Below, in pieces: positions 17,322 to 61,323 of a stretch of DNA of 64,000 nucleotides. Source of the stretch: Deroplatys truncata (taxonomy: Eukaryota > Arthropoda > Insecta > Mantodea > Mantidae); NCBI GenBank assembly GCA_030765065.1, contig CM060982.1, forward strand, positions 12,707,630 through 12,771,629, written 5' to 3'. The translations under genes were made by a program, and so were the position numbers. The notes below the pieces were generated by a model, which did not search any database, was not told the origin of the DNA, and saw only the letters and a program-made list of their open reading frames with translations. Position 1 is the stretch's first letter; every line of letters begins with the position of its first letter.

Positions 17322-17420
17322 CGACTCATGGTTACTATTGCTGCCATTAAAACACAGGAAAGTGTTATAGCCATCTTCCACATATTTTCAAATAATGTAT
17401 TGTTATTCATGTGTTGCAAC
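17322..17420 (-). CDS. DOLPP1: Dolichyldiphosphatase, internal exon encoding a membrane helix to motif SR
   Basis: On the minus strand TTTTTTATTCCACAG precedes the exon and CG|GTAAGT ends it. After one base completing an arginine codon, it reads LQHMNNNTLFENMWKMAITL and SCVLMAAIVTMSR. This aligns to the human DOLPP1 stretch [20 protein letters not shown]...VAFLVSYSR. The exon is 99 bases; it enters and leaves after two bases of a codon, so its entry phase fits the exon at 58118-58296 exactly. Its last residues, SR, begin the third phosphatase signature (SR-x5-H-x3-D), whose histidine must be in the next exon, not found in this window. The enzyme removes a phosphate from dolichyl diphosphate at the luminal face of the ER so that dolichol carrier is recycled for N-glycosylation. 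I recognise it only by pattern memory, but three exons agree. Confidence 0.88.
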
Positions 17421-19009
17421 CTGTGGAATAAAAAATATGTTTTGTTGTGTAGTGTATTATGAATCACATAAAACTTATGTCACTTAGGATATTTAATAAT
17501 TGTATAATAACAATCACTATACTTACACAAGTAATTTTACCTTTTTAAGGAAAAACTAATGAGAAAGCAAGAATCACCCTTTTAAAACTAAATAAATACA
17601 AATCCTGATTTCTGATATCCTACTCGCTTACCAGTAACTTATAACCTCCATACATACTGTTTTTGGTTGCTGTATCTATGTACTTACAAATAACAGATAT
17701 GATTTGATAATTTTTCAGCCTTTTGAATATAATATTATGGAGCAATTGTTTCTTATTTTTTAAAATTCATGTTAATTTTTATACCTTTGTTAATTTTTTT
17801 TTTGTAAAATATGCAAGGATTTTCTGTTAATTATTCTCAGTTTATACGAGGATATTATATCATTGCCATTAAACTTGAGTGTTAATTAGTAAATAACTTG
17901 CATAATAAAATTAGCTTTTATTACTTAAAATTAACATAACTTCTTACTGCTTTTATGATAAATATAATTTAGCTAATTATTGCTAAATAAATTTACTGTT
18001 TCTATATGTCTGTATGCTATGTACACTCATTTGTGAAGAATTCCACCCTCCCTGAGCAAGTTATTTTGTCATTCAGTTATGGTGCTGGCTAATGTTGTTT
18101 ATTATTTTATGCAGCATCTCCCTAGCAAAGTAAATAAATAAATAAATCAATGAGAATCAATGGAAGTTTGAATGTCGTTTTGCATACTTAAAAAAAGTAA
18201 CAACCATATTCTGATGATAATTATAGAGCCTCACAAAAGATCTTTAATGAGTATTTTAAGCTATGGAATATTAATTTTGGCTGAAAGTCATTTCTCTGGT
18301 TATCAATATATAATTTGTTAAAAAAAGAAAATATACCCAATGGCTTCACAACCATCAGCATTCTATTTGACATATTGAAAGCACATCATACCAGTTTCAG
18401 GTCACAATTTATGCATTATAAAAATGGACCTTTTGTCCTATGGTAAAGCATCTGATACAAGGGATATCAATGTAATTCCTTTGTTTGTTTTTTAATTTAA
18501 AAATTCAAAACAGTGATTTTCGTCACATCAAACAAAACACAAAGGCAGGAATGGTACAAGACAGCATAATGGTATCCGTAATTACAATATGCATTAATGG
18601 CTTTAAAAACTGACAGCAGTTTACAGATATACATTCATTCTCCAAGTGTAGCTATAAATTATGCAATAACAAAGATCTCCTCTCTGACTACAGATGATCT
18701 AAAAACATTATTATAGGGAGAGGAATTTTATGCTGTAATAATCCCTTTAATGTGTATGCAATGAAAACTTCCCTCATATGCACATTAAATACACCCATAT
18801 AAAACATATTAAGACATTTAACATAAAATAAAAGATTAAAGCAAGTTTATGTGATCTCTCCATAAATAAAACTATTGTGGAAATCATACAAATTATTTAA
18901 CTATCCAAATTTATCTTTAATATTGAAGAGTTAGGATATATGCTTTGTCACTCTCTTTTACTTTTGGTCTGACTGCATGAAAACAAGGCCTTCACCATAT
19001 ACATAGGGT
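17421..19009. other. DOLPP1 large intron, AT-rich, no recognised repeat
   Basis: This is the start of the ~40.7-kb intron counted from its 3' end. No gene, structured RNA or recognisable transposon was seen. Confidence 0.5.
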
Positions 19010-19350
19010 TGCTATATGCAATGGATTTCACAGACTGTCTGCGATTTTGTGGTAAATAAAAACACCCTGACAAAACAAAACATAACTGCATTTCTAGTGA
19101 GCAGTACTCACAGTTGCTAAAATTGTGGGATACTATTTCTCAATTCCTGGTCATAACACCAATGTAGAGAAGAGTTTTCCCATCATGGGTGCTCAGTGGG
19201 CACAAGAATGGAATAGGTTAACAGTAAAATCACTTAATGCAAATATAATACAATATGAAAAATATAAGTTATAGTGAGCTTCATAAACAATACCAAGTTC
19301 CTTTCTTCTGTTCCAGATTCTGAGAAATACAATTGGTATATATATATATA
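19010..19350 (+). pseudogene. hAT-type transposase C-terminal fragment, second copy
   Basis: The plus strand reads PGHNTNVEKSFPIMGAQWAQ then EWNRLTVKSLNANI at about 19157-19250, matching the 880-1160 fragment position by position. SFINNTKFLSSVPDSEKYNW follows in another frame. Frame changes show it is dead. The open frame continuing to 19573 (VPTFEAAVDVVTRYL) might be a C-terminal remnant of a pogo/Tigger-like protein, but I cannot support that. Confidence 0.55.
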
Positions 19351-19884
19351 TAAAAACTTAAACGTTGATACTGAATATGTTGTTGAACAACCAGAAGAGG
19401 AATCAGCAGTACCAACATTTGAGGCAGCAGTGGATGTTGTAACGCGGTACCTATGCTTCTTCCCTATTGATGAGGGGCTACTCGGCAGCATTAATCACAT
19501 TGAACACAGGCCGGATATGCGGGCAGGAGGAAACAGACTACTCTGCTGGATTTCTTTAAGAAATGAAGGTTAGTAACTTTACTGTCTTGTTTCTTTACCG
19601 GGTAATATCAGCATGCATTCATATCTAATGATAAATATGTAAACTGATAGCCATTTTCATTTTGTTTGTTGCAGATTAAGACATAAATTGTGTTTAGGAG
19701 ATCTACATTTTTTGGTACTCATTCTGTCACCATCCTCACTATCACTCTACCATCAGAGGTTGCATCCAGTTAATAAATGGGTCAAGCCATTGCTTGGTTT
19801 CCATATGAGCAACACTGAAACTAGAAACATTTTTTGTGTATTAAATTTTTGCCTATCCCTTAATGATTACAAGTTATATGAAAT

Positions 19885-20155
19885 TATTCAAAGTTTATTC
19901 TGAATGAATAGGACTTCACAGCCTATTTGCAGTAAATTCAATGTATGCATTTTATTTTTCATGCAAATATCTTAAATTATGGTATTTTAATCAAAATTGT
20001 TATAGTCATTTTTGAAAAAATAAAAAATGCACATTTTATTTTTTCATATTAAGTATCGTTTGGGGTGGAAGGACTTTCTTGAAAATATTCATATCACATC
20101 CAACTTAAATAGAAGTTTGATTTAAAAACTTAATCATGTGGTAGCTTTCCACCAA
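19885..20155 (-). repeat. R850 repeat family, partial copy
   Basis: In inverted orientation it matches the middle of the family (TTCATGCAAATATCTTAAA, TATTTTAATCAAAATTGTTA, TTGGGGTGGAAGGACTTTCT), then is lost. It lies just left of LTR element C. Confidence 0.55.
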
Positions 20156-20419
20156 CAAAGTGATTAAGATTCTCAATAGTAATATCAAGAATGAAGTTTC
20201 ATATTTATCTGATATTTTCTTTGATACACTCTCTCTCTCTACTAGCTACTGGAGACATGACTTGCATGATGTCATCCCAAGGCTGGGCAAACGTATTCCG
20301 AGATGTATATGGGTGAGATTGTTTCAATTAAACTTCTATTTCAATTACTGCGTTATTTCTCTTAATGAGAATGCTTCGGTTTGGGTTCAATTTCAGTAAA
20401 AGTAACTTTCTAAATTCTA

Positions 20420-21623
20420 TGGGGTGCTTCAGTAAGCACAGTAATTTTTTTCAAAAGAAGTTTAATAGGTTAGATGTAATAAACTAAATAACAGTGACCC
20501 CACAGCATTAGCTACTTTTATACAGGCGCGTAGACTCTCTGCACATTTCTGGCACCAGTTTACTTATACCCCGTTCACAGAACTCCTTTTGCCTCGAGTA
20601 TAGCATCTTCACACATACAGTTTCACTTCTGCATCTATGTCAAAATGAACAGCTGACCAGGAATTTCTTCATGGAACCAAACAGATGAAAGTCTGGCAGT
20701 GCAATGTCTGGACTATAAAGTGGGTGCTGGAACACCTCCCAACCAAATTTTGTAATTTTCTCATGAACAGAAGCCACAACATGAGGGCGATCATTGTCAC
20801 CAAGCAGTTTTCAGCATTAATGTCATGGCGTTTGTCACAAACAGCACATGCAACTTCACCAATGTTTTACTGTAACCTTCAGTATTCACAGTGGCCCCTT
20901 ATTCAGCAAAGTCTACCAGCAATACACCATGCATATCCCAGAATGCTGTCACAAGCACTTTCTTCACAGATTGCAGATTTTTTTTTTTTCTACCGAGTAG
21001 TTGGTGTGTTTCCATTCCATATAAGTTGCTTTGTTTCGGGCATGTAGTGCTATGCCCAGGACTCATCACAATTACAGTCATACGCTTCTGCAACATAATG
21101 TGTCAAGTGTCATCTATCAGGTTCTTAGGAACCCAGGGGGCATTAACTTTATGAAATTTTAGTGTGATATCGTACACTGTACTGTAAGAAATGCTGAATT
21201 GTTCAGACAATGTTCGCAGATGGATCTACCAGTCATTCAAAAGAGCTGTCTCAATGGCTGCAACATTCTGCTGTGTTTTACTGGTTGTCTGGAATGTGGT
21301 GGTTCTCATGGCTTTCGTCAAAGAATTTGTACCATCTAGAGATGTTGCTAGAGTGTCTTCCCAGGTGTGATAGACATTTCCGCTAAATTCCACTTGGTTA
21401 TGTCCTTTTGCCCACATATCTTGTTGTTCTTCACAATTTGAAGAGTAACATTCAAGCAATTTTTGCTTTGTTGTTCATGGTTCTCTTGCAAGAGCTACAC
21501 CTGATTGAAAAACTGTCATCTCTAGCACAAACTTCAAACTATATCTCTGTGAAATTTAAACATCCTAACCACAAATAACAATGCAAGAAAAAATTACTGT
21601 GCTTACTTACTGTTCCATCCACG
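20420..21623 (-). mobile_element. mariner element, decayed, inserted in the 5' LTR of element C
   Basis: This 1,204-base element lies between TA dinucleotides (20418-20419 and 21624-21625). The terminal inverted repeats share CAGTAAG and CACAGTAATTTTTTTC near both ends. The minus strand carries a mariner transposase in pieces: an N-terminal helix-turn-helix region (around 21460-21160) with the WVPKNL hinge near 21130, and a catalytic part with DES, PETKQ, then VLVTAFWDMHGVLLVDFAE (20899-20960). Numerous stops and frame changes make it inactive. The uninterrupted 3' LTR of element C preserves the empty site AAATTCTAAATTGCAG, which proves the TA duplication and both ends. Confidence 0.88.
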
Positions 21624-21738
21624 TAAATTGCAGTTTAATCTTTTAACTCAAACAAATGTAACTTGATGAGTCTACCAAGAACATAGCACATGGCCAAATG
21701 GAGCAAAAGTAAAATAGGGTGATTGTTTTATTTAGTAT

Positions 21739-22745
21739 TATTGGCTGGAAAGACTTTATGAAGCAGTAGTCAAGTCAAAGGTGCTATGTGGAATAGAAAT
21801 TTGGGAAGTGACAAAGGGATGGCTTAAGATTGATTTAGTCCATAGAATGTTTTGTAGAGAAATTCTGGGTCTACCCAAGAGCTCACCAAAGGGCGTGGTG
21901 GCAGAGCTAGGAAGGGTAGAGAGAAAAGGTATAACAGTGGAGAGAATTTTGAAATACTGTACAGATGTTTAAATCTAGATGACAGCGATATAATAAAAGA
22001 ATGCACACAGTTCTAAAAAGCTGTTTTAGGAAGAGAAAGTTGGTTTGGTGAGATGGGAAATATGTTAGAAGAAATTGGCATGAGGAATATTTGGCTATTA
22101 GATAAAAACAATAATGGTGGATTTTGGAAAGAAATGAGAATGAAGACATAGAGAAACAAAAGATATGGGCTACTTTTGAGGATAAAAGTATGAATTGGTT
22201 AAGAGAAATTGGGGGAGGGAGTATGTAGAAATATGCAATCAATTTGAAAGAATAGGTGTTGCTTGGATGTGCACAGAAGTAATATTTCTAAAAAAGATAG
22301 GAAATAATTGCTAGGGGAGATGCGTTATGTGTGACAAATTGGGTAGTATTTTCCATTGGCTAATGTGAAAAGCTTAAAAGTGGAGAGATGATACTTGGAA
22401 TAAAAAATGGGATAAGTTGAACAAAGAAGTAGTAGAATCAAAATGTTGGCAAGCCCAAAAGCAGAAATGATTAAAATGTGGGGACATTTTTAGGAAGTGT
22501 AAGAGGTAAGTGGACAAGGAGCAACAGAATGGTTTTAGCCTGGAAAGTGAGCAGTAGCTTTATTCCATACATACGAAAGCTTTATAGACGCACTAGATTA
22601 AAGAAAACATCATTTAGTTGTAAGTTTAATTTGTAACATTGTATCACAGAAAGGTGGGAATAAATGTTCGTTCGTTCGTTCGTTCGTTCGTTCGTTCGTT
22701 CGTTCGTTCGTTCGTTCGTTCGTTCGTTCGTTCGTTCATTCATTC
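21739..22745 (+). mobile_element. LINE 3' fragment with (TTCG)n tail, inserted in the 5' LTR of element C
   Basis: The plus strand reads LYEAVVKSKVLCGIEIWEV then HRMFCREILGLPKSSPKGVV, the C-terminal part of a LINE ORF2 after the polymerase palm (pattern: V-L-x-Y-G-x-E-x-W ... R-x-x-L-G-x-x-x-x-T-P). The more distal reading, full of stops, keeps a cysteine-rich remnant. The element ends GGGAATAAATG followed by about 17 TTCG units (22668-22736), the microsatellite tail at which reverse transcription started. The intact 3' LTR of element C (TTTAGTATACATGATTTTG) gives the pre-insertion site. It is 5' truncated, as LINEs commonly are. Confidence 0.75.
22666..22740 (+). repeat. (TTCG)n microsatellite, 3' tail of the LINE
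   Basis: About 17 tandem TTCG units, then two to three TTCA units, directly follow AATAAATG. Confidence 0.95.
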
Positions 22746-23097
22746 ATACTAAGTATTTTGCATTGGGTTCATCAAGAACTGGAATTGATGGTACTACATT
22801 TATATTAAAGAATACTTTTTGTGGTAATGCATGGGAGTGCAACTGCCAGGGCCAAGCTACATTTAACCTTTCATGCTGTACTTTCCATTTTATGGAATAG
22901 TACATACTGCTTTTGTCACTGTCTATTGTGTCATTGCAATTCTTTTATTCTACATTTTTTGTTTACTTTAATTTCAGTTTGTAACTCATTACACTTTTGG
23001 AAAGCCAATTTGAAAAAGAGAGAGAATTCTTAATTCACATTTTAATTTATATTTCAAATATTATTACTATTCAGTTACTCAATCTTTGATCCAGTTA

Positions 23098-24316
23098 CGG
23101 CCTGTATTACGATCTCCGGTTAAAAGTCATGGTTTGTAACCTATCAGTTATCGCTACCTGAAGGTTAGGTGCATTGCCGCGTATTACAAACGCATATCAA
23201 CCGATGGTTAGTAACCCTAAGGTTTATGATGCTGGGCGAGAAGTTGGCAACACCAAAGAGATATGTATTTCTCCTTGGCAATAGTTTTCTGAGTGATTTC
23301 ACTGTTTATACAACGCTATCTCGTGGTAATCTGCAACATTATAGCGTCATTATTGGTCATTAGTAACAAGACGAGCGGACAGACTATTATAGATTGTGAA
23401 CGGTTTTGGAGATTTTTTTAGAGAATTTTGACATGAACATAACCTAAACTGTAATTTATATACATGTCATTGAGCATACAAGATGCGGTTCTAGTACGTT
23501 ATTGGATTACTGAGATACAATAGGATACCGTAAACAATAGTTATAATTACCTTTTTATTAGCTTTTCCGTTCGCGAAACCTATTATATTTATAGAAAAGC
23601 AACATCGATGGTTCTAATGTTGATTCGGATTTACACATGTTGCCTGACATTTAAGTTCAACACAATATTCTTAAGTTTGTTGCATCTTTCTAATACCGTT
23701 CCTTGGTTATTCTATTTGGAAAACTATGCCACACTTCAAAGTTTCGTTAAAAATAGTGTTAAGAGTTTTGACGTAAAAGTTTTACGAATATCACTTTAAT
23801 AACCGAAAACCATAGTCTTTTGATGCAAACATTTCATGAATATCACTTAAAACTAACGTGGAAAGCCATTCCACAATTTTAAAAACCAACCTAAATATAA
23901 ACTAACACGCAAAATACGTTTACCTTTGCCCACACTGCTTGTCATTTAACCTAAAATGTTTGGCCTTCCAAAAACAATCCAAGCACAATGGTTAGTTCCT
24001 TATGCCCTGACAGTAATATTTAAGACTGGGTGTTGGAGTGAACTATTCTAATGTATAGATAACATTTCCAAAAACTTGAAAATATATTCTGAATCACTCT
24101 CAATAATCAATCTCTGCCGGTGGTACGCCATGTTTCATTCGGAAATACGAGTTAACTCCAAGGTATCATCTTTATCCACCACTTGAGGTGGTGGTTAGTT
24201 TACCTCCAAAAATAACTCCCGGGTAGCCCTTAACCAAAGATTGTAATACAGTCGCAGTACGTAACGCTCAGGTAAATCTTACCCCAAACCTTAACCGAAG
24301 ATCGTAATACAGGCCG
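23098..24316. mobile_element. Non-autonomous inverted-repeat DNA element (1.2 kb) in the 5' LTR of element C
   Basis: The termini are CGGCCTGTATTACGATCTCC (GGTTAA follows) and its inverse at the right end, a 26-base terminal inverted repeat with one mismatch. A third, internal copy of the motif (CTGTATTACAATCTTTGG) lies about 60 bases inside the right end as a subterminal repeat. TTA on the left and ATA on the right may be a decayed 3-base TWA target duplication of the PIF/Harbinger type. No transposase frame is present. The corresponding place in the 3' LTR (CCAGTTAACTACG, about 41431) is uninterrupted. Confidence 0.8.
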
Positions 24317-24479
24317 ATAAAGATTTAATTATATTATACTGTATGTATGTAATTTTGAATCTATATTTATTTTCTCTTCACAATTCCTTCTTAAACACAT
24401 TTTCTTACTCAAATCATTATTGAAAGGTCTCACCATAAGCAGTACAATCTCAAATATTTATAACTATGGAACTTCCTTT

Positions 24480-26110
24480 TCTGCAAGAAGTACTGAATAA
24501 GCAGGAACTCAAGTTTGAATTGCGAGCTCTGGAGGTCTAATTTAATGCAAGTGCAGAACTGCTGCAGTTGTTACATATAGTACTATCCGAGGAGAAGGAA
24601 TCACCAACCTGGTCAAGTTTGGCTGTTAGCGAAACAACTGAACATGGCACATGTGAGCATCCTAAAAGCATTCTTCTGAAACTGGCACAAGAATACTGTA
24701 AAATAGGGCTGACTTCTTTTAAATTACAGCTTGAGGTTCATTTATGTTCCAGAAATCTACGACACGGGACCACCGGCTTTATTTCCCTTCCTAAGGAAGC
24801 CATGCTAGGGATTTACATCCGAAAAAATCCATTACCCTCTGCCAAGTTTGAACCCGTGACTTCGGGAACTAGAGGCTAGCATGGCATTTGTTATTGACAA
24901 TACAGAACAGTATGACCCAATTTCTTTGTATCAAACTCAGTGAAATAAAAGCAACTAAATTAATTTTTGCAAATTACTTAAAACCCTGCAGTCTAAAGAA
25001 CAATTGCCACATATTCAAGGACACAAAGAACAACCAATAGAAGTTCAGGTAGATACTTTATGACCTCCTTATACCAGGCTCAGATTATGCAAACAATACC
25101 ACCAGCTCAAACTTCAGAAGTTCATGAACACAGAAATTTAATAAGTGTTTAATAAAAACACACAAACAAGCAAAAAGCATTTAGGGTAGATGGTCAAGTG
25201 CTGTTGCAGATATTTCATCCTTACGTAACAACTTCAGTTTCAAAAATAGTTCAAGCAATGACCAAAAAATTTACAGGGAAGGTTTTCATAAACCTTACTG
25301 AAGGTACTTTTATCACCATTAAATTATAATCTATTACTGACCTCCAATATTTACGAGACAAAAACTGCACGATATGTTTGCAGAATTTATTGAGGAAATG
25401 ATCTGGGTAGCAATCTGGGTAGCATGTGAAGTATACAAAACTGTGAATAAACAGTCATGAATGCCACATATTCTGAAATACATATGTTAGCACTGTGTAA
25501 ATTGAATTCTCCACAATTACATGAAGTAGTGTTGAAGCTTACCTATACAGCCAGAGGTACAATACATGATAATGTAACCAAAAGTGAACCTGTTAAGGTA
25601 CATTGGTATTGTCACAAAATAGGTTATGTTAAGGACGATTAGTCAGGTCACAGAAGTTATGTAATAACACCCATATTAATGAGAAAATGGGACACATTAC
25701 ATCAGTGTTGCCTTTTGTTTCTGTTGAGTTGGAAAGAAAAGCTTGCACATTATGAATATCTAAAACTTTATAAAATTATGTTTATCACATTCTTGTAAAA
25801 TAGACATTCCGTCACAATATCATGAACTCATTCTGGAAGTGTAGTTTCGTTGGTGAATGCACAAACACTTGCATCTCAAGCTGGGTCACACACTAGTGTA
25901 TCAGTGTTGCATCAGAACCATTGTAAGTTTTGGGCATGGTGGAACTGGCTTTACAAAATATCTCATTTTAGGTGAAACGTAGAATGTTATGTAGTTCAAA
26001 ATTTGGCTGTCCAACTTATGTTAGGTGCAGTCTTTATTATGAAAATAGGTTGTTTTGAAGAATGCAAGTAGATATATTTAATTTACATTTGAGCCAGAAG
26101 TTAAGGTAAA
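24480..26110 (+). pseudogene. LTR element C gag and protease remnants
   Basis: The plus strand keeps a zinc-knuckle-like WYCHKIGYVKDD near 25600 and, near 26010, LAVQLMLGAVFIMKIGCF, which resembles the segment after the protease active site in Ty3 elements. Much else is unreadable. It is part of a fossil with many breaks. Confidence 0.5.
24728..24885 (-). mobile_element. SINE family S1, partial copy
   Basis: It shares ATCTACGACACGGGACCACC, AAGGAAGCCATGCTAGGGAT and TTGAACCCGTGACTTCGGGA with the full copies. It lacks the A-box end and the distal body, so it is truncated at both sides. Confidence 0.75.
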
Positions 26111-27079
26111 CCTGCAAGCAGGGCTATATTGGAGGGGGAATGTGGGTGGATGCCATCCCCTTACTATTTTATTACTAATTAAGTTTTGTCTTGCTTAATT
26201 AAAACATTCTAAATGCTGAATTATAACTCATAGAACATATTTGTTTTAAGCCAGCTGAGCATTGCTGAATAGCCCAAACAATGCAATAAAAAAGAACAAT
26301 GAACACGAAGAGCAGGGGGCCGGGGCTAGTGTACATTGTCATATTAATTTCTCACATTGTGTAATATGTTCCATTACCAGTGCTACAAATTCAAGAAATG
26401 CTCAAGATTATGCAAGCACTCAAGATTACTGTTCAACTTGTAACATAATTATAGAAACATACATCAATTTAAATGTTTGTAGGGTGTATAGACGGTGTTG
26501 GATATCAACTAAACATGCGATATTACTATCATGTTTGTCACAATAGCAAAATGAAACTCCCTTCATCATCACAGTGATGTTGTGTATTTAATGATGCAAC
26601 CAAACTTGACTCTATCTGAAACCTAAGCTGTAAGATAAGATATGAATAAAATAAAAACATTTCCTGCTTCCTTATGCTGATATTACATTCCTAAATGATG
26701 CAATAACAATACCGAATGTCGACTCTTGACCCTCTGAAATGATGGGTGTTATTATCATGCAGCAACAGTAGTCATTTTCAGTCATGTCATACCTTTCGTC
26801 TGAGCGTTTACAGTGTGATTGTTAACACCTTTAATCGTTAGTCATTGTATGGGTTATTGTGGTTCACTTTTCTTCCACGTAAAGTTATAGACATTGTAGC
26901 AGACAGTACTCTTGACTTCTACAAATTGGTTTACTGTTTTAGAGCCTGGCATGTTACATTGTTTTAAAAGTGATAAATGTATAAATTGTGTTAGTAATTG
27001 AAAAGTGTAATGCTTCATTCTGAAATGCAGTATAAAGGATTATTTCAGTAAATCTTGTTCTGGGGTTTCAAGTCTAACT

Positions 27080-28720
27080 TACAGAAGATGATCCACATGC
27101 TTTGAAAGAATGTGAAACTGCTAACACCACATACATCGGAACAAGTATTGCTGAAGATAAAAGTAGTGAAGTAATTCCTTGTCATTTGGAGTTCCAGTTT
27201 GCTGGAGCAACAGTACATAGAGAGCATTTAAGGCAAAATACGAATGGTTATTATGTAGGAAAGACAAGTTTGGGTGCTCAGTGTGTAAAGGTGTGCAGAA
27301 TATAAGAGTGGATAAATCATAGGGAATGTACATTTTTAAAGAATGGAGCAGTATTTCAGTAGGTCTGGTTTGTCTAAGTTCACTTAACTTCATTGGGAAA
27401 AAAGATTAATAAACATAGGAATTCTGAAGCCAATTTAATTGCCTGCAGACAAGATAGTGTTCTAGAAAACCTTGTAGTTGAACAGCACATTTTGTTTTGC
27501 ACAACATATTTTAAGACAAACCATAACAAACTGTATTTAAACTTTCACAAGCTTGTGGATTTGCAAATTGAAAATGGTCTCCACATGGGCAAAACACTAG
27601 ATAGTAAGCTCAGTTGTGCCAACATTACAGACTGAAGTGCAGACACTATGAGGAAGAAGCTCTGTTTGTACATAATATTGAACAATTCCAAGATCTCTGT
27701 ATTCATTGATGAGTCTACATCTTAACGTTCAGTTTTAATAGTATATTTAAGGTCAGAAATTAATGATAGTTATGCAAATACCTTCTTCTTGAATATCACT
27801 GAACTTCAAAAAACAATGGGGAAACAATAGAAGCTGAACCTTTTTCTCGAAGCAATTGTTTGAATGACAATTTGATTAGAGCATGCAGCAATGCCAGAAC
27901 GAGGTAAGAACAAACAAATGACATTGAATTAGGGGTGGCTGATGCAATTGAAAAGGTTTCTGGTGTGACACATATTATCATCTTTTTTAACAAGCTATAC
28001 ACATTGTACCATTAATCTCCAAAGAATCAACATGAACTGTCAGCTGTTCCGCAAGAGTTAGGAGCAGAGCTTAAGAAGACATATGAAGTACTCTCAGTGC
28101 GTTGGGTGGCCTCAATAGAGCAGTGCAAGCAGTATGGAAGTGCTACCATGCTCATTTTAATAGATGTTCAACTGACAAGACTAGAAAATCAAATATAAGG
28201 GAAGAGTTGCAGAAAACACCCGAGTTCGTGTGCACTTGCTTTCTGGTGTTCTTGAAGAGATAAGTATCCTCTCACAGTGCCTCCAAAAGGACAGTGCTAC
28301 TATTCTTTCATCACATAGGGAAATTATGGGCCACTGAACAATTGAAGGAAATCCAGGTGCTTGCATGAAGGAAGCACAGAAAGCTATTTCAGAAGGGTGT
28401 TTCACTGGTTCCCAGAAGAGAATCAAGCAGAATGACTCCCTAATTAATAGCAAACAGTTGTGTTAGAGTCTTAGTGACAATTTGAAGCAAGGCTAATTTC
28501 CTATGACAATGAAAAATTCAAATCCTTCATAAAAGAGATTGATATTTTGGACAGTAAAAAATGACCATGTGACATTGCGAGACCAGGCTAGAAGGGAGAA
28601 AATTGTGTGATCCTTTTCTTCTTTCTTTTTTAGATGTAAAGGAAGGTTTCAGAGATTAGACAACATTCCTGAAAACATGAAACCAGTTTTTGTTTGTGTT
28701 GGTACCACCTCTGCTATATC
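27080..28720 (+). pseudogene. hAT-like transposase copy (KIAA1586/ZMYM-type)
   Basis: The plus strand reads through several frames as a protein of the KIAA1586-like hAT branch. It has a zinc-finger-like start (KTSLGAQCVKVC near 27270), SLGKKINKHRNSEANLIACR (27390-27450), LVDLQIENGLHMGKTLDSKL (27550-27610), IFNNSKISVFIDEST-type sequence near 27690, and ELGAELKKTYEVLSVRWVAS at about 28060-28115. The last matches the block around the second catalytic region. It is heavily mutated and cannot encode a protein. It sits between the gag/protease and reverse-transcriptase remnants of LTR element C, so it is probably nested, but I did not find its terminal inverted repeats. Confidence 0.65.
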
Positions 28721-28949
28721 TATGGAACCCCGAGGATTACATCAAAGTATCAAATAAAATACATAGGCATGCTGAGGCCAACCAATCCAAGGAGGCTAAT
28801 CTACATGTGCAGCAATCTGAATGATACTCTAACTTGTGGGGATCTCACTATTTTTGTTAGGAATACAGCACTGGCTGCAAGTACACCAGTCGGTGGTGAA
28901 TAGTGTGTGTTACATTTTGGATTTGGGAATGATGAGAGTTTTAAGCCTA

Positions 28950-34520: not shown

Positions 34521-34539
34521 TTAAATCCCCCTCACTCGT

Positions 34540-38900: not shown

Positions 38901-38904
38901 AGTC

Positions 38905-42000: not shown

Positions 42001-42004
42001 ACTT

Positions 42005-48590: not shown

Positions 48591-48594
48591 ATTT

Positions 48595-50185: not shown

Positions 50186-52924
50186 CAGGGTTGCAAACAT
50201 GATGGAAATGTTAAAATTTATGCTCGATAGCCCCACAAAAAAAATGAATAACTCTGCTTGTAATTATGCTGTAACTGTAATCTTGGGCTTGTTTTGAAGC
50301 TAAAGGAACTGGGATGTCATTATAATGGGCTTCACTCTAAAATATACGATGTTTAAGTTCAAGGGTCACGATTTTGGAGCTTGAATATAAAAGAAAATGT
50401 AGATTCAATATTTTTGGAAATAAAGTACTTTATACAGCTAAATATAATCTTTCTTTGATGTAGGTTTAATCTTGGGAAGGCTTTAGGAACATGAGTAACC
50501 GGATGTTTAAGTATGCTACATGGGCCACTCTTGCATTAACTAATCCTCTGAGCAGGCTCAGGCTTGTCTCCTATGCAGGCTGAGACTTGTCTGTAGAGTG
50601 GAGTTCCCAGTGTGGCTTATGTCTCTGTATTATGAGGTATGTTATTGCTGGTGGTGGTGAACTTAACAACTACATTTATATGACGATGGAGAAGAAGTAC
50701 TTTAAGATACAGTGTTGCAATCCATTTGGTATTAAAAGACACAAAAGTAGTAGAAAACAATGGCGAAAAGCTCTGCCACACATCAGAAATGACCAGATGA
50801 TCCTTGACAAGTGCTGAAAACAAATTAAGAGGGATATTTCTCCTTCTGAAGAAGAGCCAAGCGCATCAGTAGAGGACAACACTGACTCAGCTTTGCTGTC
50901 ATTAACTGAAAGTTTAAGTAGTATTGGAGCATTGCCTATAGAGAAAAAGAGAATAGAGGAATACAATTTGTAAAAGGAAAGCTAATAAAATTGCACAAGT
51001 GGTTAAAAAGGACATTTTGCAAGTTCTGGATGAAGAGCTGTATCTGATCATAAACAGTGTACCATATTGCAGCAGTTGAAGAAACTACAAAAAATTCTGT
51101 GATTATTCTGACTCTTCTTTTTCTTCTTCTTGGAGCATCAGAAGAATAGTGAAACAATTTCCTCATGCTAGTAACTACATGATTAGAATAGCAAAAGAGT
51201 TCATACGCAAGTCTGGGGTTTTATCATCACCAAATCCTGAACTAGGAGGGAGCTCAGACCCTGATATTGTTAAGATTGTGGTGGGCTTCTATTGCAGCGA
51301 TGATGTGAGCAGGATAATGCCTGGCAAAAAAAATTTTATTACACTGCAAAGTGGTGATACAGAAGGACATGTACAAAAGCAACTTATTTTAAATAAACTT
51401 TCAGAAGTGTATGCTCACTTCAGTCACACTCCAATGTAAAGATAGGATTCTCAAAATTTGCCTCCCTGCAACTAAAACAAAGTGTTCTAGTGGGAGCTAG
51501 TGATATACATACAGTATGTGTTTGTGCTATGCATCAAAATGTGAATCTGTTGTTGGAAGGTTGCAAATTAAATAAATTCATGGAAGACCAGGGGCGCCAC
51601 CTCTTTACTTACCAACACTCTATGGATAACAGATATGCACACTTGAGACAACTGTGATTATACCTCTGAAGATTTCATTGACTTGCTAATAGCCAAGTTA
51701 ACTCAACTACAGACACATTCTTTCATTGCTGTTCAATAGTCATCATATTTGAAATGTTTGAAAGATGACCTAGAGATAGGTGAAGTTATTGTACTGTGAT
51801 TTTGCAGAAAACTATTCATTCATACTGCAAGATGAGGCACAGGGTTTCCCAAGCCACCATTCACCCATTGCTATTTATTACAGACAGAAGATTTGTTGTG
51901 TACAAACTTGGTGGTTATTTCAGACTGTTTGCAACACCACACAGTAGCTGTGCATACATTTCAGAACTGCCTTGTACACTTCCTGAAGCAAAACATTCAA
52001 AATATATTACTTTCCAGATGGTTGTGCAGGCCAATACAAAAACATGAACAACTTCTCAAGCTGATTTTGGTATTCCAGCTGAGTGACATTTCTTTGCCGA
52101 ACTTTGTGTATGTGTCTGAAGATGAAGTTTTGAAGAACAGAAAGTTACTACACAAATGGCATGAAAAAGCCAAGCGAGTTCTTGGTACTCAAGCATTCAT
52201 ACCTGGGGTAAGGAATAAATTAATTCAGCAGATGTCTGCTTCTCACGCGATACACCATCCTTGGAAGAAATAAAAGGATTTATGACATGTGTCTATAAGA
52301 ATGCTAGGTTGTTTGATGAATGTAGCATCCCAGGAGCTGTTAATCAGTTTTCTCCATCTCAGAGGTCCAGATAAATCATTTGCGTACCCTCACAAGCCTG
52401 ACATTTGCAATATTCCCAGTGCAAGTGTTCTGGTGCTCGTATTGCAACTGGATGAACATATACATTAAATGCCACAGAAATCCAAAGTGCAGAAGCAGCA
52501 TTATTAAGGAGAAGCCACTGACTTGTTGGTTTCCTGAAAAGTTTATGTACTGGTAGCCACTATATGCCACCATTATATTATCTACTTGCAAATATTTCTG
52601 CATTATATTAATCTCCATGCATTTCAAATGTTATTCTTATGTTCCCAAGATTAAACCTACACCAAAGAAAGATTATATTTAGCTGTATAACATACTTTAT
52701 TTCCAAAAATATTGAACCCACATTTTCTTTCATATTCAAGGTCAAAGGTCATGACTTAAAAATTATATATTTTAGGATTAAACCTTTTTAATGACATATG
52801 AGCTTCAAAATACGATCAAGATTACAGTTGTAGCATAATTAGAAGCAGAGTTATTTACGTTTTTTGGTGGATCTTGCGAGCATAAATGTTAATCATTTTC
52901 ATCATGTTTGCAACCCTGCTGTAT
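50186..52924 (+). mobile_element. DNA transposon with ~290-base inverted termini and unfamiliar transposase
   Basis: Both ends begin (T)GCAGGGTTGCAAACATGATG. Similarity then runs inward about 290 bases, to GTAGGTTTAATCTTGGGAA at 50461-50480 and its inverse near 52640-52660. TGTAT next to each end is a possible target duplication. Between the termini lies a decayed plus-strand transposase. The CAGGG start recalls hAT elements, but the protein does not look like an hAT transposase. The copy has many stops and frame changes. I cannot assign a superfamily. Confidence 0.8.
50676..52330 (+). pseudogene. Decayed transposase of the long-inverted-repeat element
   Basis: Readable pieces in order are: CCNPFGIKRHKSSRKQWRKA (N-terminal, 50715-50780); QFPHASNYMIRIAKEF and FYCSDDVSRIMPGKKNFIT (51150-51340); KIGFSKFASLQLKQSVLVGA then TVCVCAMHQNVNLL (51440-51550); DFAENYSFILQDEAQGF (51795-51850, reading a neighbouring frame); VVISDCLQHHTVAVHTFQN (51910-51965); FPDGCAGQYKNMNNFS (52010-52055). 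The three aspartate-bearing blocks (DFAENY, SDCLQH, DGCAGQYKN) suggest an RNase H-like catalytic fold. I recall similar multicopy uncharacterised proteins in arthropods and cnidarians, but that is memory only. Confidence 0.6.
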
Positions 52925-53029
52925 GAGCATGATGCACTACTGAAGTATACTCTTTCACATATGTAATTTACTTGGTGGTCTCTACAACTTTAGTGAAGAT
53001 CTGAGATGGTCGGCTTTTCAGCTATGATG

Positions 53030-53780
53030 ATTTGGCATGGAATGACCTGAAGATATTGTATTCAACCCAAAAGTTTGATGATTAGATTTCAAATAAAAAA
53101 AAAAAAACAAAAAGTCTGATAAATACCAAACTTGATATTTAAGTTCAGTATCTTTAAAGACGTGACTCAAAGATTTTCAAGAAAACCTTCTCACATCAAA
53201 CTACCCCTTACATGGAAAATTCTTTGGAATTTTTTATTTTCTCAAAAATTACTTATGAGTTTTATTTAAATATCACATATTTAAGATATTTACATGACAA
53301 ATAAAATGTATTACTTGAATTTTCTGGGAATACCCTGTAAAGTTCTGTTTATTATGAATGACTTTTGTACAATTGGTTAACCGTAAGGAATAGACAAACA
53401 CTTACTACACTAAAAAAGTAGATCTTGTTAAAACACACAATTTATGCCAAATTGTTTTGAGGCACTAACCATTTCCAAGATATTCTTAGTTATTGCTTTG
53501 AATTTTCAAATAGTTTAACCTTCAAGTAGTAAGTCAGTTTCAAAGCCATCACACTGAGATCTGCTTTTTAAAAAGATCTGACTATGCTTTAGCCTTACCT
53601 ACAAAAAAATGTAAAATGTGTAATCAATGTTTATCTTAATTAACAAAAAGTAGATACAAGAATACACATTTGTAGAAGAGCAAGTATAGAAAGTGAGTGA
53701 ATGCAATACATCAAATTATTTTTATATAGCTCCTACATACTATTGTTGTTATCCTTCTATCATACTTCAACTTAACTCAT
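53030..53780 (+). repeat. R850 repeat family, copy in the 53-kb region
   Basis: It follows the family from ATATTGTATTCAACCCAAAA through CCAAACTTGATATTTAAGTT, TACATGACAAATAAAATGTA and GAAAGTGAGTGAATGCAATA. An A-run has replaced the TG-rich core. Confidence 0.65.
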
Positions 53781-53781
53781 A

Positions 53782-55096
53782 TACAGGATGAGTTTGAAGT
53801 CCAACAACTTCAGAGGGCGATTCCTGACTGCAAATGGAGAACAAAAGTTCAATCACCTTGTGTCTGGAAATGCATAGTTTCCACAGTAGATGGCACTGAA
53901 GAATGACATCAAACAAAGAGCTCTGGCACACAGTAAATGGCCTAAATCCTATCCATGTCACAACAGATGTTCAAAGTTGCCTCCATGGGATGCAATGCAC
54001 ATTTTCACACATTGCATCACAGATTGCCTTACTTGTTCAAATGTTTTGGGTTGTGTCCAAATATTGTCACAGACCATGTGGTCACGCTGTTGAAGGGCCT
54101 GTACATCAGGAACAGGCTCACTGTCACAATGTCCCCACAAGTAAAAATCCAGGGGGTTTAAGTACAGTGACTGAGCAGGCCATGCAAAAGGGCCTCCACG
54201 TCCTTTCCAATGTCTGAGGAAGATGATGTTGATATGTCAATGAACATTAATGCAGAAGTGGCTGGCGCTCAATCGTGCTGCAACCACATCGCTGTTATAT
54301 TGCCAAAGGCGCATTCTCCAGCAATGGAAAGAGTGTGTTTTGCAAAAAGTACAGATATGTTTCTCTGTTCAGGTGTTACGGAAGAAGAACTGGTCCAAGT
54401 AGACAGTCGCCAATAATGCCTGCCCAATCATTGATGCTGAACCGCTGCTGATGAGATGCTTCAACCATTCCGTGAGGATTTTCTGTAGCCCACAGATGAC
54501 AATTATGCAGGTTAATGATGCCATCTCTACCAAAGGTCACATCGGAGAAGGGGACTGAAGACAAAAATCCCATAATGGTTATGGTCTGTTGCACAAATCA
54601 GAAAATCTGCCAATGATAATCCCGCACACGTGCTAGGGATAATAGCTGTTGTCATGTAGGATACAGATAACAGTCCTTTGGCTTACATTGTGTGGAGCCT
54701 GTTGTTCTCAATATCATGGAGAACATGCTCCTCCACATCTGGTGTATGCACAGTCTGAAAGTTCATCTGTCTCAAAGGACACACAAACAATGACTCCAAA
54801 TGTTGTGTGATGTGAGTGGTGCTGTCTGACAGGGTAAGTGGCTCAGTGCTGCCTCTCGACCGGTACGGTCACCTGCTTGGTCATACATGAACACCATCTC
54901 GGCTTGTTAATGAATAGCGGACCATTGTGCTTCTATGTTGCTTAAATCACACTATCTGCAACACACAAAATGCACACTGCAAGTTATGTGAGAAAGTCAT
55001 GAGTACCATCTACCACTTCCGGACACAAGATGTGCTCCATTTCCAGTCAGGAATCACCCCCTGAAGTTTGTCGGTGGACTTAAAACTCGCCCTGTA
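53782..55096 (-). mobile_element. IS630/Tc1-mariner-type element, decayed
   Basis: This 1,315-base element is flanked by TA. The ends read TACAGGATGAGTTTGAAGTC and, inverted, TACAGGGCGAGTTTTAAGTC. They stay similar for about 65 bases (GGCGATTCCTGACTGCAAATG against GGTGATTCCTGACTGGAAATG). The minus strand carries transposase pieces: VTFGRDGIINLHNCHLWATE and FSINDWAGIIGDCLLGP (54376-54594), then PVAWPAQSLYLNPLDFYLWG (about 54205-54120). The last holds the final catalytic aspartate region (S-P-D-L-T-P-L-D-F in the family). Here SLYLNP replaces S-P-D-L-T-P, so a catalytic aspartate appears lost. It is also interrupted by stops. Confidence 0.85.
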
Positions 55097-55099
55097 TAT

Positions 55100-55395
55100 G
55101 TCTGCATAAATGGTTTCATTACACATTTCATTATAGGTACAAAGGAAATAGAGATAGTCAAATGCTTAAAAACTAGTCACCACATATTGGCCTTGAAATT
55201 TCATACCTACTCTTTCTATGGCATCTGAGAAACAACTGACTAAACACTTAAAAGACAAGAACTGAAGAATTGAAACCAATAATAATGGATATCTTGGATA
55301 TGATTGATGCCACAAAGAAAATTATTTTAAATTAAACTTGTAAACAGTTCTACATTTTTCTTGTGAAGTGAGTTTTTGTCTATCTCCTACCTATC
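55100..55395 (-). repeat. R850 repeat family, partial copy
   Basis: TTACACATTTCATTATAGGT, GATAGTCAAATGCTTAAAAA and ATGGATATCTTGGATATGAT match the 30-kb copies in the same orientation. It is diverged and truncated, directly beside the IS630-type element. Confidence 0.5.
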
Positions 55396-55399
55396 ACAA

Positions 55400-56340
55400 G
55401 GGGTGGTATAAGCACAACTATATGTTAATGATCTACCACAGCAACTTTAAAAGAATGAAGTTAAAACAGCACTGTTTGCAGATCATTTGGCTATTTGGAC
55501 CTCACAAAGATTAAACAAATCTGAAAAATTATAAAATACCATCCAATCATCATTAAAAGCACTTGAAGGATAGTATGTCAGTAAATACAGAAAAACACAA
55601 ATTTCAACTTTTTACCCTATGGGGAAAGCCAATTTAAATTATAGAAATGCTAGAATAGAAAGTGCATGATACTCAAGAGTACATTGAACATACAAGCACA
55701 AAGGCAGTCAATAGTTTTAAGCTGTTAAAAAGGCTTATAGGAACAAACTGGGGCAGCAAAAGAAACACACTGAACACACCATACAACACTTACATAAAAC
55801 CTACCCTAAAATACTGTGGTGAAGTTCTAATAACTTGTCATTTAGTAATAAGCAAATAATTGAATGTATACAAAATCAAGCACTAAGAGTCATCATAGGT
55901 GGAGTTGAAACTACCCCAATAGAAGCCATGCAATCACTACCAACACACCAATCATAGCAGAACTTGAAACACAAGCTGTCTTAACCCATGAAAAATTAAA
56001 AGGGCTCCCAAATTCATATAAATGGAACAGAAATAAAAATCTTACATTCAGGCCTATGCTAAAAACCCTGAATGGATTCATAAAACAAGTAAAAACATTT
56101 AGAAATATCCACGACAAAGAAAACTTGATATCTTGGTATAACCCATTAAATATTCTTAAAGTGAATGTTGTTTCTTGATCTGGATGAAATATTTAACAAA
56201 AAAGACAAATTCAGTGGAAGTAAAAGCCACTGCCTAGAAACAATTAACAGAAAATATTCACAAAAGGAATTGATACGCATCTATACACATGGTTCCTACA
56301 TGAATCAAGATGGAGCTGGAGCAGGTTGTACTTGCACATA
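55400..56340 (+). mobile_element. Jockey/I-group LINE fragment, RT end to RNase H start
   Basis: Plus-strand readings in several frames are LYVNDLPQQL, ALFADHLAIWTSQRLNKSEK (the polymerase FADD box with D changed to H), FKLLKRLIGTNWGSKRNTLN then YIKPTLKYCGEVLI (55662-55859), QNQALRVIIGGVETTPIEAM (about 55875-55935), and RNase H start IRIYTHGSYMNQDGAGAG (56270-56325; family DGS, here HGS). Both catalytic changes plus stops show it is dead. It is truncated at the right by an R850 copy. Confidence 0.75.
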
Positions 56341-56344
56341 CTTT

Positions 56345-57200
56345 TCCTTTTATAAAAACCTGATGTGTTACACTCGCATGACTTTCCCTACTCTTGTACA
56401 AACTATTTTTACATACACTTATTCTCCGTATGCTTCATGCTTATCAAGATGTTAATCTTATTGCTAATTTTCTTGTAGATGCAAGGGGAATTGGTAGGTT
56501 TTAAGCGAGAGTCAACTATTTTAATAGCTGGTTGCTATGTAGAGTATTCTATTCTCTTTGCATTACCAGGACAAAAAAAAATGAATAACGAATTTGAGAA
56601 AAAGTATAAGTATTGGAAAATTTAAGGGAATAACAAGCAATATCTCGAAAACGGTTCACTCAACAAAAAAGAAATGTATGACATAAATTGTGTATTTTAA
56701 CGCGATCCACATTTTTTGTGTAGTAAATTGTCTATCTCTTATGGTTTACCAGTTATGCAAAAGTCGTTCACAATGAAGAATACTTCTGGAGACATTCCCA
56801 GAAAATTCGAGATATACATTTCATTTGTCATGAAAATATTTTAAACATATGATATTTTAATTAAAATCGTTAGAGCCATTTTTGAGAAAATTAAAATTTT
56901 CGAAAAATGTTCCATGTAAAGGGTAATCTGGGGTGGGGATTTTCTTGAAAACCTTCGTGTCGCATCTCTGGAAGATACTGAACCTAAATACCAAGTTTGG
57001 TATTTATCTGACTTCGTTTCTGAGTTATGATGTTCACAGACACACACACACACACACGGACATGTTTCCAAAAATGCTTTTTTGGGATTCAGGGGGTCTC
57101 AAAACATGTATTTCCGGTGAAATCTCGGTATCGAATTTTTGGGTGGAATACAATACTTCCCCTACTTACTATACGTAGTAGAGAAAGTAAAAATGTTGGC
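56345..57200 (-). repeat. R850 repeat family, complete inverted copy
   Basis: It begins CTGATGTGTTACACTCGCAT then GACTTTCCCTACTCTTG and ends CTACTTACTATACGTAGTAG then AGAAAGTAAAAATG. It contains (CA)n at 57044-57058 where copy 1 has (TG)n. It is the best match to copy 1 and defines both family ends. Confidence 0.8.
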
Positions 57201-57859
57201 AAATATACACCAAACTTTGACTAAAGTTGGTTCTATTCCTTCTCACAAGACTAAAAACATGATAACATTCACCATTACTATAAGGAACAGTTAAAATTGC
57301 CAACATAACTGATGCTATTTTAACATTCAATCTGACCCACAAATACAAGCTAATCTTGTCCATTTATTATCTTCCCCACCAAGCAGTAGTGTCTGAGGCT
57401 TACGTCCGAATGTCTTGCAATTGAACATTCCTGTTGGAGTGGCCACTTTGAGATTTTTCAAGTTTTTTCCACGTTGGTAGATGAATGCTGAAAAGTGAAT
57501 TTTATACTATCGTGCATTTTCCTGTCAATCTCCTTTCAGGTGTTACAGGACCTGGTGAGTGGTTCATGTGCTGTAAGGAGAGAACTGTTTCTTCCCTGGC
57601 ATCCTTTCTGAATATGTCCACCTGTTCTGCCAGATAGAGAGCATCAGGGATGCTCATGTTGGAAACAATAGAGACCGTGCTGCACTGCATCCCTTCCTCA
57701 AGGTATAGGTCTAGCCTTGCCTGAGGTGACAAAATCCTTCTCTGCTTCTCAACCCTAGCACCCTTTACTCCAACTGCAGACGACATTTGGTCATCATGCA
57801 GATAACAGAGAAGACAGTTGGCAACACACTGACTGATAGAATTTACCACAGCATCAATC
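57201..57859. other. Unassigned stretch with a 115-codon minus-strand frame
   Basis: The frame at 57502-57849 (with YLAEQVDIFRKDAREETVLS) has no domain I know. Its position just beside a hammerhead-like motif could mean that it belongs to a retroelement, but this is unsupported. Confidence 0.3.
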
Positions 57860-57861
57860 GA

Positions 57862-57912
57862 CCAAATAACTGATGATAGGGAAGATGCTCCCTGAAACTA
57901 GTCATTTATAAG
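57862..57912 (+). ncRNA. Hammerhead-ribozyme-like motif, unattached to a recognised element
   Basis: The plus strand reads CUGAUGA (57870-57876), a stem-loop AGGGA-AGAUGC-UCCCU, GAAAC (57894-57898), then UAGUC. AC pairs with GU around UA as a 2-bp stem III, with GUC as the usual cleavage triplet. Stem I is poor. As in the 5.4-kb motif, a single U is unpaired between core and stem II. Confidence 0.5.
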
Positions 57913-58117
57913 TTTTTACGTTTTAATGTTTCCTTGAACACTGTATTTTAATTGTTTTTATTATTGTTTTAGTTTTGGCAGTCTCTGCATCTCTAATGCT
58001 TTTGACAATAGGCTTGGCTAGTCGATACCACCTTATGTCTATAAATTGTGTTGTACTTCAGCCATAATTATCTGAACAAAATGTTACATTTAATCTAATT
58101 AAACTTACAGTACTCAC

Positions 58118-58296
58118 CGTATAAATATGAAATATAACATATATGTAGCAAAAAACCACATAAACTGTGAATGTGATGATGGCATGCCATATTCTGTGTA
58201 AAGAGAGCTTCTATGTATTGGTCTTGCTTCACAAAATGTGTGCTTTAACAGAAGATTTAATACTTCATTTAATCCTGTTCCCAAAAAGAAGATGAT
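58118..58296 (-). CDS. DOLPP1: Dolichyldiphosphatase, exon with phosphatase motifs 1 and 2
   Basis: The minus-strand acceptor TTTATTTTCAG precedes ATCATCTTC and the donor is CG|GTGAGT. The 179-base exon starts on a codon boundary and ends after two bases. It reads IIFFLGTGLNEVLNLLLKHT, FCEARPIHRSSLYTEYG and MPSSHSQFMWFFATYMLYFI. Motif 1 of the PAP2/acid-phosphatase fold, K-x6-RP, is KHTFCEARP. Motif 2, PSGH-like, is PSSH. YGMPSSHSQFMWFF is essentially the human DOLPP1 sequence, the strongest identification in the window. The exon encodes part of two membrane helices and the luminal active-site loops of the ER enzyme that converts dolichyl diphosphate to dolichyl phosphate. The next exon is 40.7 kb away at 17322-17420. 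Confidence 0.95.
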
Positions 58297-61222
58297 CTGA
58301 AAATAAATAAACGAGAGGTACTTGTTTAATTCTAACACTAGACTTGTAAAGCAATAAAAGACTAGACAATCATTACAACAGAATGTGTACTCCTGCATGC
58401 ACCTAAGTGGCTAAAATTACCTATATAAATAACTAATTTTTGTGCATAAAACCACTTTCTTATAACGTATGCATGACTGCCAACCGTAATTTCTCAATAT
58501 TCTTGGTCAGAAAAATGGCTAATATTGCCAGGAATGGAAACGAGGGTACATCACTTGAGAAGCCCAATGCCTTGTGGAACAAGCATGTCTCCTGGGCCTC
58601 TTGAGAAGATTAAGTCTGTTTCTTATATCACAGTGTACACCTGGAGTGATACAACATGTGATGCCTATGATAATTGGATGGGTCATGAGGCCATTTTACC
58701 TTCCAGTCAAATTGAGGAGGGCCCAATATTTTTTACAAGTTTCCCCGAGTTATATTGTAGGTTAAATCATGTTTGGTTTAACTTCATTCTTTTTTTGTCA
58801 ATTAAGCAGTTATGCTCTTACAGTTCAATACAAACATTTTGCTGAGAGAAAGAATTGCGATAAGAAATGATCCTTAAATTTTATTTACTGCAAACAGTAT
58901 TTCATTAGTATCCAAAGCACTCCTAAGCCAGATACTTTTGTGTTTAATTTTGCAAACAAGCAATTACAAAAGCAATGAACCTATATTCTATTTTCAAGGC
59001 AGAGAATTCTGAAAAGTTGCAGCATCCTCAGAATGAACCACAGTTTCCACATCTACTGCTAAGTGTGTTTTATTAGCCACGAGCCAAGAAGTTTGCCACT
59101 CTTTAAAAATAAAATTGTGTTTTGGTGGGGATAAGTTATTCTTAATGAACATATCTTACGAGAGCTTATTTTTCTATATGACGTGTATGTGTAATACTCT
59201 TTTACAAAAAAGCATCAGGCAAAATTCAGTCATAAGTTTCCAAAGCTTACAGTTGCTAGCAGCGCCAGTTATCCATAATCTTAGGAGTAAAGTCAGGGAG
59301 CATAAAGGATATTTTTCTGACCAAGAAATGATTTAACAATGCTGTGTGTTGTATGAAGAACATTGGATGAAATGAGAGCCAGCTTATAATCAACATAATC
59401 TCAAACTCTTATTGCAATGCGGGTAAACCAAGCATGTATATTTATACAGACTTTTGTGTGACCAATAATATAATCTCTTAGATCTGTACTTTAAGAGGAA
59501 AGTATTTACAGCATGTTGTGATTCAATTTTATTTGAGAGGGGCTATGAAATTCTTGTGATATTTGCTTGACATTCTTCAACGAGAAGAATTCTTATGCTG
59601 ATATATAGACAAGGGTTGTTTGGTGCATAAACATTTTTGAGGAAGTGCCACATTTGAGACATTTTACACTGTCCTACGCCAAACAGTATTTGCCTCATAA
59701 ATGTGCTTTTCTTTAAAAACTCTGTGCATCTATTTCTAAAATCAAGTTGTTAGTGGTGCATTAATTTTAGTCCGTACATGCTGAAGTTAGGACATTAACA
59801 TCTAGTTTTATGTTGAAAAATTAGTACTGGAAACTCAGGCAGAGTGCTTACAGAAATTATTTCTGCCAATTCCTTTTATTTCTATTTTGCATTAATAGTT
59901 CAGATACTGGCTGTTACAAATTGCAATTTTGTGAAAATGGATGTGGAAATTAATTTATGATATGGTTCAAGGTGGTTCCAATAAAGACTATGTTAAGAAC
60001 AAAAAGAAGATAAAATCAGGAACTTTACTGCGTTTGGAACTTTTAATAATCATGAAAAACAATTTAACATTTTAATTATAGTCTCATTGGCAATCAGCTG
60101 ATTATTCTTGTTTTAACACCAAGCATTTGGCCATTTTCACTATGGCCTTCCTCAGATTTCCATGAGAACATAATTAATAATCATCGCTGAGAAAGAAGAA
60201 GTCTTTAATTCAGTGTTTTATTAATACCATAGGCTTTAATAATTGAAAAATTAACACTGTGTTTATGAGAGAAAAAAAGCTCAATTATCCGCTGTGTTGC
60301 ATTGCTCAAAATTCTGAAATTCTTTTGGAAAACTTGTTCACTACGTTCTTCACCTTTGGAGATTGTCAACCTAATGTATGCTCTCTAGCTTATAACCACT
60401 TACTCCTCCAGCTAATGACTTTGTTCCAAGTATGGAATGTGGCAGGAACTACTTTGATAAATAATGCAAAATTTAAAGGATTCACTTAGTATTTTTATGG
60501 CTAACTGCTCATTTGCCTATTTTATTCACAGATAAAAACAGTGTGAAGCATGTATCACTTAAAAATGATGTTAAGTATTGTAAATGTATTCTGACAAAAG
60601 GAGGAATACATGAAGCGAATAAAATTTTATTAATATTAAAGATAATGCAGTTGGCAATTTTGGCATAGTCCAATAATGTGGAAGAGTTAATGCCAATAAC
60701 ATTTTATACTAGAAGGGATAAGAAAAGTGTGCTAAGAATCTTACTTTTTTCTTGTTGTTTTAATGTGGTAAATTATAAAAGCATTACATTAAAATAAACT
60801 GGTCATTCAGCATTGTTTGCAAACTACTACAGCAAGAATTTAATAAGCTGCATGTATTGAGCTAACATTTTACTTCTATAACTTGCTAAATAGCTTTGAA
60901 AACATTGTTTAAACATGTGCAACTTATAATTTGGAAATGCTGAATGCATATATTTACAAATAGGAAAGTCATATAGAGTATGAAAGGGCATATTCCAGGT
61001 TTTTGACATAATTTATCAGTTGCTCTCACTAACCTTGTTCACCACATGAACAACAAATGCACTAAAAATCTTTGCAATTCCTTTTCTAGCTAGTTTTAGC
61101 CTTAAAGCTTAAAAATTTACATACATTTTTACTCAGCCTTTAGTTGAAGCATGGTTTTACAATAATATGTTATGATGTTGTAAAGTTTTTAAATAGACAA
61201 ATACTGATTATATTACACTTAC
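58297..61222. other. DOLPP1 intron (2.9 kb)
   Basis: It is bounded by the donor CACACA|GTAAGT and the acceptor TTTTCAG|ATCATC on the minus strand. No transposon or RNA gene was recognised inside, unlike the neighbouring 40.7-kb intron. Confidence 0.8.
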
Positions 61223-61323
61223 TGTGTGCAAGTCTCTTCGGAACAAAATAAGTGCAACAAAACCTGAGAGAATACCAAAAGGGAATAAACTTGAAAGTGC
61301 AAGAAACTTCCCTAGCCAGTCAC
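61223..61323 (-). CDS. DOLPP1: Dolichyldiphosphatase, first membrane-helix exon
   Basis: The minus-strand acceptor CTTTTACAG precedes GTGACTGG and the donor is CACACA|GTAAGT. The 101-base exon begins with two bases finishing a glycine codon and then reads DWLGKFLALSSLFPFGILSG and FVALILFRRDLHT. This aligns with human [35 protein letters not shown]. It ends on a codon boundary, matching the start of the exon at 58118-58296. It encodes the first membrane helix. The upstream exon with the initiator methionine was not found between 61324 and 64000 and is presumably beyond the right edge. Confidence 0.93.

Follow-up and report, generated by a model that had tools for sequence, protein, structure and literature searches.

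Dolichyldiphosphatase (DOLPP1; CWH8 in yeast) dephosphorylates dolichyl diphosphate at the endoplasmic reticulum (ER), after which the carrier is reused in N-glycosylation; in mouse the protein is reported to be 238 residues long, and in human eight exons make up the gene (PMC4281381). Here, we describe a 64,000-nucleotide stretch of Deroplatys truncata DNA from contig CM060982.1 (the window; base 1 is its first letter) that, with a probability we put at about 0.9, contains part of a functional-looking DOLPP1-type gene of a large, repeat-rich animal genome, in which a phase-2 intron would have grown to 40.7 kb.

Long introns are well described in other animals, as are ways of removing them. 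The mean intron length is given as 12,522 bp for the desert locust (Schistocerca gregaria) and 11,159 bp for the migratory locust (Locusta migratoria) (PMC7607483). For the club-legged grasshopper Gomphocerus sibiricus, with a mean of 18,564 bp and a median of 6,551, the term "intron gigantism" was chosen by the authors (PMC12693501). Introns of more than 50 kb are reported to number in the hundreds in mammals (PMC2773006). Most fly introns above 40 kb are reported to contain recursive splicing sites, which tend toward the intron midpoint when they are single (PMC6110457). In introns of more than 50 kb, such ratchet sites are enriched in all five invertebrates of one study: relative to the complementary strand, the excess is 4- to 22-fold in fly, bee, beetle, and sea urchin, while in mosquito the complementary strand has no such site (PMC2773006).

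Results

Three exons on the minus strand of the window, named A to C in the direction of transcription (Table 1), join into a stop-free peptide of 125 residues. Their coordinates, strand, order, and phases (0, then 2), as well as the distance from 58118 to 17420, are as the first-pass annotation had given them. That annotation had also described the splice sites as consensus and the exons as consecutive parts of DOLPP1, and both descriptions are supported: the two introns are GT-AG, all six sites rank high, and collinear tblastn matches together with a PAP2 domain favor this identity of the gene. The window's minus strand has 3332 GT and 3997 AG sites. By simple consensus matrices with approximate values, the donor of exon A ranks 61st among the former, that of exon B 7th, and that of exon C 15th; the acceptors, in the same order, rank 7th, 14th, and 3rd among the latter. 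All six are within the top 2% of their kind on this strand. Exon A, for instance, is flanked by the acceptor TTTTACAG and the donor GTAAGT. The G+C content of the window, from base counts, is 37.8%.

A tblastn comparison of an approximate vertebrate DOLPP1 sequence with the window returns E values of 6e-7 for exon A, 2e-14 for exon B, and 0.012 for exon C. The residue numbering of DOLPP1 runs on across both junctions, with no residues apparently missing between exons, and each match extends slightly beyond its exon into the intron. Counting exon residues alone, exon A is identical to this DOLPP1 at 17 of 33 positions, exon B at 30 of 62 aligned columns, and exon C at 7 of 32 positions. The joined peptide matches the Pfam PAP2 family (PF01569) at 2.5e-7 and 30.9 bits, against a gathering cut-off of 27.2. 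What we take to be PAP2 motifs 1 (K-x6-RP) and 2 (PS-x-H) are both intact in exon B, as KHTFCEARP and as the PSSH within YGMPSSHSQFMWFF. The last bases of exon C, AGT CG, could yield the SR of what is presumably motif 3 (SR...H...) across the next junction, the following exon not being recognised in the window. The match to the vertebrate DOLPP1, the single comparator among PAP2 families, is good, and the gene is well supported as a PAP2 phosphatase that is probably of the DOLPP1 type.

Is the distant exon C a chance match? All open AG-[99 nt]-GT segments with the required phase were scored against the 32 residues expected at this place. Exon C, with a score of 41, is the best of 44 minus-strand segments, the next one scoring -5; the best of 45 plus-strand segments scores -8, and the top segment in 30 first-order Markov sequences reaches 21. 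The first-pass annotation had named a better matching exon within 17421-58117 among the findings that would overturn its model. The scan of that interval turned up none of the required AG-99-GT form, and a better exon C inside the long intron was rejected as no such segment outscores 41.

Neither end of the gene was recognised in the window. Scores stay at background level both for an N-terminal exon in 61324-64000 and for a motif-3 exon from exon C down to base 1, searches made with pieces of the approximate query, which diverged exons could escape. None of the four best listed minus-strand matches per N-terminal piece falls in 61324-64000, and a loose N-terminal exon pattern has one match there, at 62059. 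The motif-3 piece placed behind an AG scores at best 17 on the minus strand and 18 on the plus strand, a perfect match being 106. The gene probably extends past both ends of the window, and unless the motif-3 exon has diverged, exon C is probably followed by another intron no shorter than 17 kb.

Table 1. Exons, introns, candidate ratchet points, and repeats at the DOLPP1-type locus, in window coordinates (a slash marks the AG/GT boundary)
Feature	Position	Strand	Description
Exon A, internal	61223..61323	minus	101 nt; starts after first codon base, ends in phase 0; encodes DWLGKFLALSSLFPFGILSGFVALILFRRDLHT
Intron A-B	58297..61222	minus	2926 nt; phase 0; GT-AG
Exon B	58118..58296	minus	179 nt; PAP2 motifs 1 and 2
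Intron B-C	17421..58117	minus	40697 nt; phase 2; GTGAGT...CCACAG; degenerate transposons and repeats inside
Exon C	17322..17420	minus	99 nt; encodes (R)LQHMNNNTLFENMWKMAITLSCVLMAAIVTMS(R)
Candidate ratchet point, strongest	53597..53600	minus	AG/GT; ...ACATTTTTTTGTAG/GTAAGG; normalised score 0.856; 11% into intron
Candidate ratchet point, weaker	52201..52204	minus	AG/GT; normalised score 0.771; 14.5% into intron; no self-repeat at site
Candidate ratchet point, weaker	48455..48458	minus	AG/GTAAGT; normalised score 0.775; 23.7% into intron; no self-repeat at site
Transposon remnant	34912..36873	plus (antisense to gene)	DUF4780, 47.0 bits (cut-off 24.5); weak reverse transcriptase, 16.5 bits (below cut-off 29.6)
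Direct-repeat pair	43007-43452 and 47357-47717 (span 43007..47717)	unassigned	80-82% identical
Dispersed repeat family	1922-2789, 3866-4627, 19827-20100, 30014-31339, 53112-53664, 55108-55388, 56354-57193	both orientations	

The long intron had been described in the first-pass annotation as filled with nested transposons. Repeats, transposon remnants, and one probable composite long terminal repeat (LTR) element are indeed present, whereas "filled" and "nested" are borne out only in part: in a comparison of the window with itself, repeats cover 18.5% of the intron, and of its open reading frames (ORFs; 30 searched from the 88 listed, at least 75 residues long) one passes a Pfam cut-off. By the same comparison, the repeat cover of 1-17321 is 19.9% and that of 58119-64000 is zero. 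An RNase H match in the intron, like the reverse-transcriptase match, stays below its Pfam cut-off; a 17-bit match to PF00798 at 20649-21044 (cut-off 25) was taken as chance, as were further sub-cut-off matches among the searched ORFs. Between the direct repeats at 43.0 and 47.4 kb, the blocks 44421-46208 and 46230-46507 are related to the Ty3-type region at 12.7-14.8 kb, and judging from the repeat layout, 43007..47717 is probably an old LTR element, composite or nested. The polyadenylation signal AATAAA occurs 45 times in sense and 57 times in antisense in the long intron, and ATTAAA 44 and 37 times, so that the sense orientation is not clearly depleted. Searches for RNA families at the gathering threshold and for transfer RNAs found none.

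Further repeats were observed in and around the intron. A (GTTC)20 microsatellite lies at 22666-22745 (98% matches), and two copies of the dispersed family, one at 1.9-2.8 kb and the other at 56.4-57.2 kb in inverted orientation, share 90% identity and flank most of the long intron. Downstream of exon C, at 5485-7421 on the minus strand and in the sense of the gene, adjacent ORFs match GIY-YIG (24.3 bits, cut-off 22.6) and reverse transcriptase (47.9 bits), a pair like that of Penelope-like elements. A degenerate Ty3-type LTR element spans 11264-16026 (minus), with direct repeats at 11264-11769 and 15632-16026 that are 79-83% identical and, between them, ORFs for integrase (12210-12587) and RNase H (12938-13891).

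Could an intron of this length be removed in steps? AG/GT sites were scored as candidate ratchet points in a test that was set up post hoc and used approximate matrices. Across the whole window, one of 199 minus-strand sites scores over 0.8, namely site 53598, as against none of 242 on the plus strand. The top three scores in the intron are 12.9, 9.0, and 8.9 in sense versus 5.1, 3.7, and 2.9 in antisense. The sum of the best three, 30.9, was reached in none of 200 simulations at each of three Markov orders, nulls that do not model repeats, and all 29 spacing and strand controls stay below it (maximum 27.8). The best single score was equalled in 2 of 100, 3 of 200, and 2 of 200 simulations, and at least three sites scoring at least 8.8 occurred in 1 of 200 and 0 of 200. 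The two weaker sites are level with the best plus-strand site, at 5402 (0.774), and with the exon A acceptor (0.772). Site 53598 itself lies at the edge of a dispersed-repeat copy; because another copy, 30087-30165 (plus), aligns through the site (TTGTAGGGATAAG there, TTGTAGGTAAGG here), the strongest ratchet motif may be a by-product of the mobile repeat.

Discussion

What do three exons spread over more than 40 kb represent? In the reading that we favor, they are consecutive internal parts of a DOLPP1-type gene, whose product would act at the ER, removing phosphate from dolichyl diphosphate and thereby recycling the carrier to N-glycosylation. The phase-2 intron would have expanded to its present length at least partly by transposons and repeats. 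Since the exons are short (101, 179, and 99 nt) and the splice sites strong, exon definition is the likeliest mode of recognition, and the spliceosome most likely joins 58118 to 17420.

Several observations weigh against this interpretation. The homology query, a vertebrate DOLPP1, is an approximate sequence, and the splice-site consensus matrices likewise hold approximate values. Taken alone, exon C is weak in both its identities and its tblastn E value. A sequence search of the PDB returned no relatives, and the viral_contigs and genome_contigs collections gave no confirmed relative, although both hold viral and prokaryotic DNA and are therefore little informative. Neither the first nor the last exon was recognised in the 64 kb, the reading frame seen here is incomplete, and some room is left for a truncated old copy. 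Such a decayed or truncated copy, its exons parted by transposon insertions and its correct splicing lost, would fit the two absent end exons as well as the sense-oriented transposon ORFs downstream of exon C. We nevertheless hold it to be very improbable, as the three exons are free of stops and frameshifts, the six splice sites are strong, motifs 1 and 2 are intact, and introns running off the window explain the absent ends. We give even less credence to the idea that exon C comes from another gene or matches by chance, with 58118 joining an exon somewhere inside 17421-58117; the low identity of exon C to the DOLPP1 query and its modest tblastn E value speak for it, but the segment has exactly the phase, length, and residues required, and it scores 41 where the next of 44 segments scores -5.

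A different alternative keeps the gene as it is and changes the path of splicing. Here 58118 would first join 53598, perhaps then 52202 and 48456, the donor being regenerated each time, before exon C is joined; the possible ratchet points lie near 53.6, 52.2, and 48.5 kb. Its appeal is a sense-strand site at 0.856 that is unmatched over 0.8 elsewhere in the window, a three-site sum beyond all Markov simulations and all 29 controls, and the reported richness in ratchet sites of long introns in fly and other invertebrates (PMC6110457, PMC2773006). Against it stand the position of the strongest site on the border of a dispersed-repeat copy, where the motif is possibly a by-product, the post hoc nature of the test and its approximate matrices, the handful of simulations that equal the best single site, and two weaker sites that are not outstanding beside site 5402 and the exon A acceptor. 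Moreover, the sites are found 11-24% of the way into the intron, whereas single fly sites tend to lie near the midpoint (PMC6110457). On balance, we consider stepwise removal unlikely, and the fuller proposal, in which one to three ratchet points in the 5' quarter of the intron serve and the strongest was supplied by a mobile repeat, is more doubtful again. If it were true, transposon-derived sequence would both swell an intron and aid its splicing, and fly-type recursive splicing would extend to a repeat-swollen intron. More generally, recursive splicing here would bear on how long introns are spliced without error in animals with giant genomes.

To return to the DOLPP1-type gene, is a 40.7-kb intron unusual? 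The first-pass annotation had implied that it is peculiar, a view that published intron lengths in locusts, a grasshopper, and mammals do not bear out. The intron is 2.2 to 3.6 times as long as the orthopteran means quoted above, and given these means and the mammalian introns of more than 50 kb, its length is ordinary for a large, repeat-rich genome, such as the source animal presumably has. The practical consequence is one for annotation, where it is useful to note that a small enzyme gene with more than 40 kb between two of its exons is easily broken up into two gene models.

In conclusion, the locus can be set beside three known systems. With DOLPP1 and yeast CWH8, the gene shares the PAP2 domain and the K-x6-RP and PSSH motifs, and it differs in that the window holds only the middle part, about 125 residues, as against the 238 of the mouse protein. 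Like recursively spliced Drosophila introns, the long intron exceeds 40 kb and carries ratchet-like AG/GT sites on the sense strand; unlike them, it has these sites toward its 5' end, the best one within a dispersed repeat, and they are candidates predicted from sequence. The giant introns of orthopteran and other large genomes, described as "intron gigantism", likewise run to tens of kilobases with transposons and repeats, and the long intron of this gene does not evidently differ from them.

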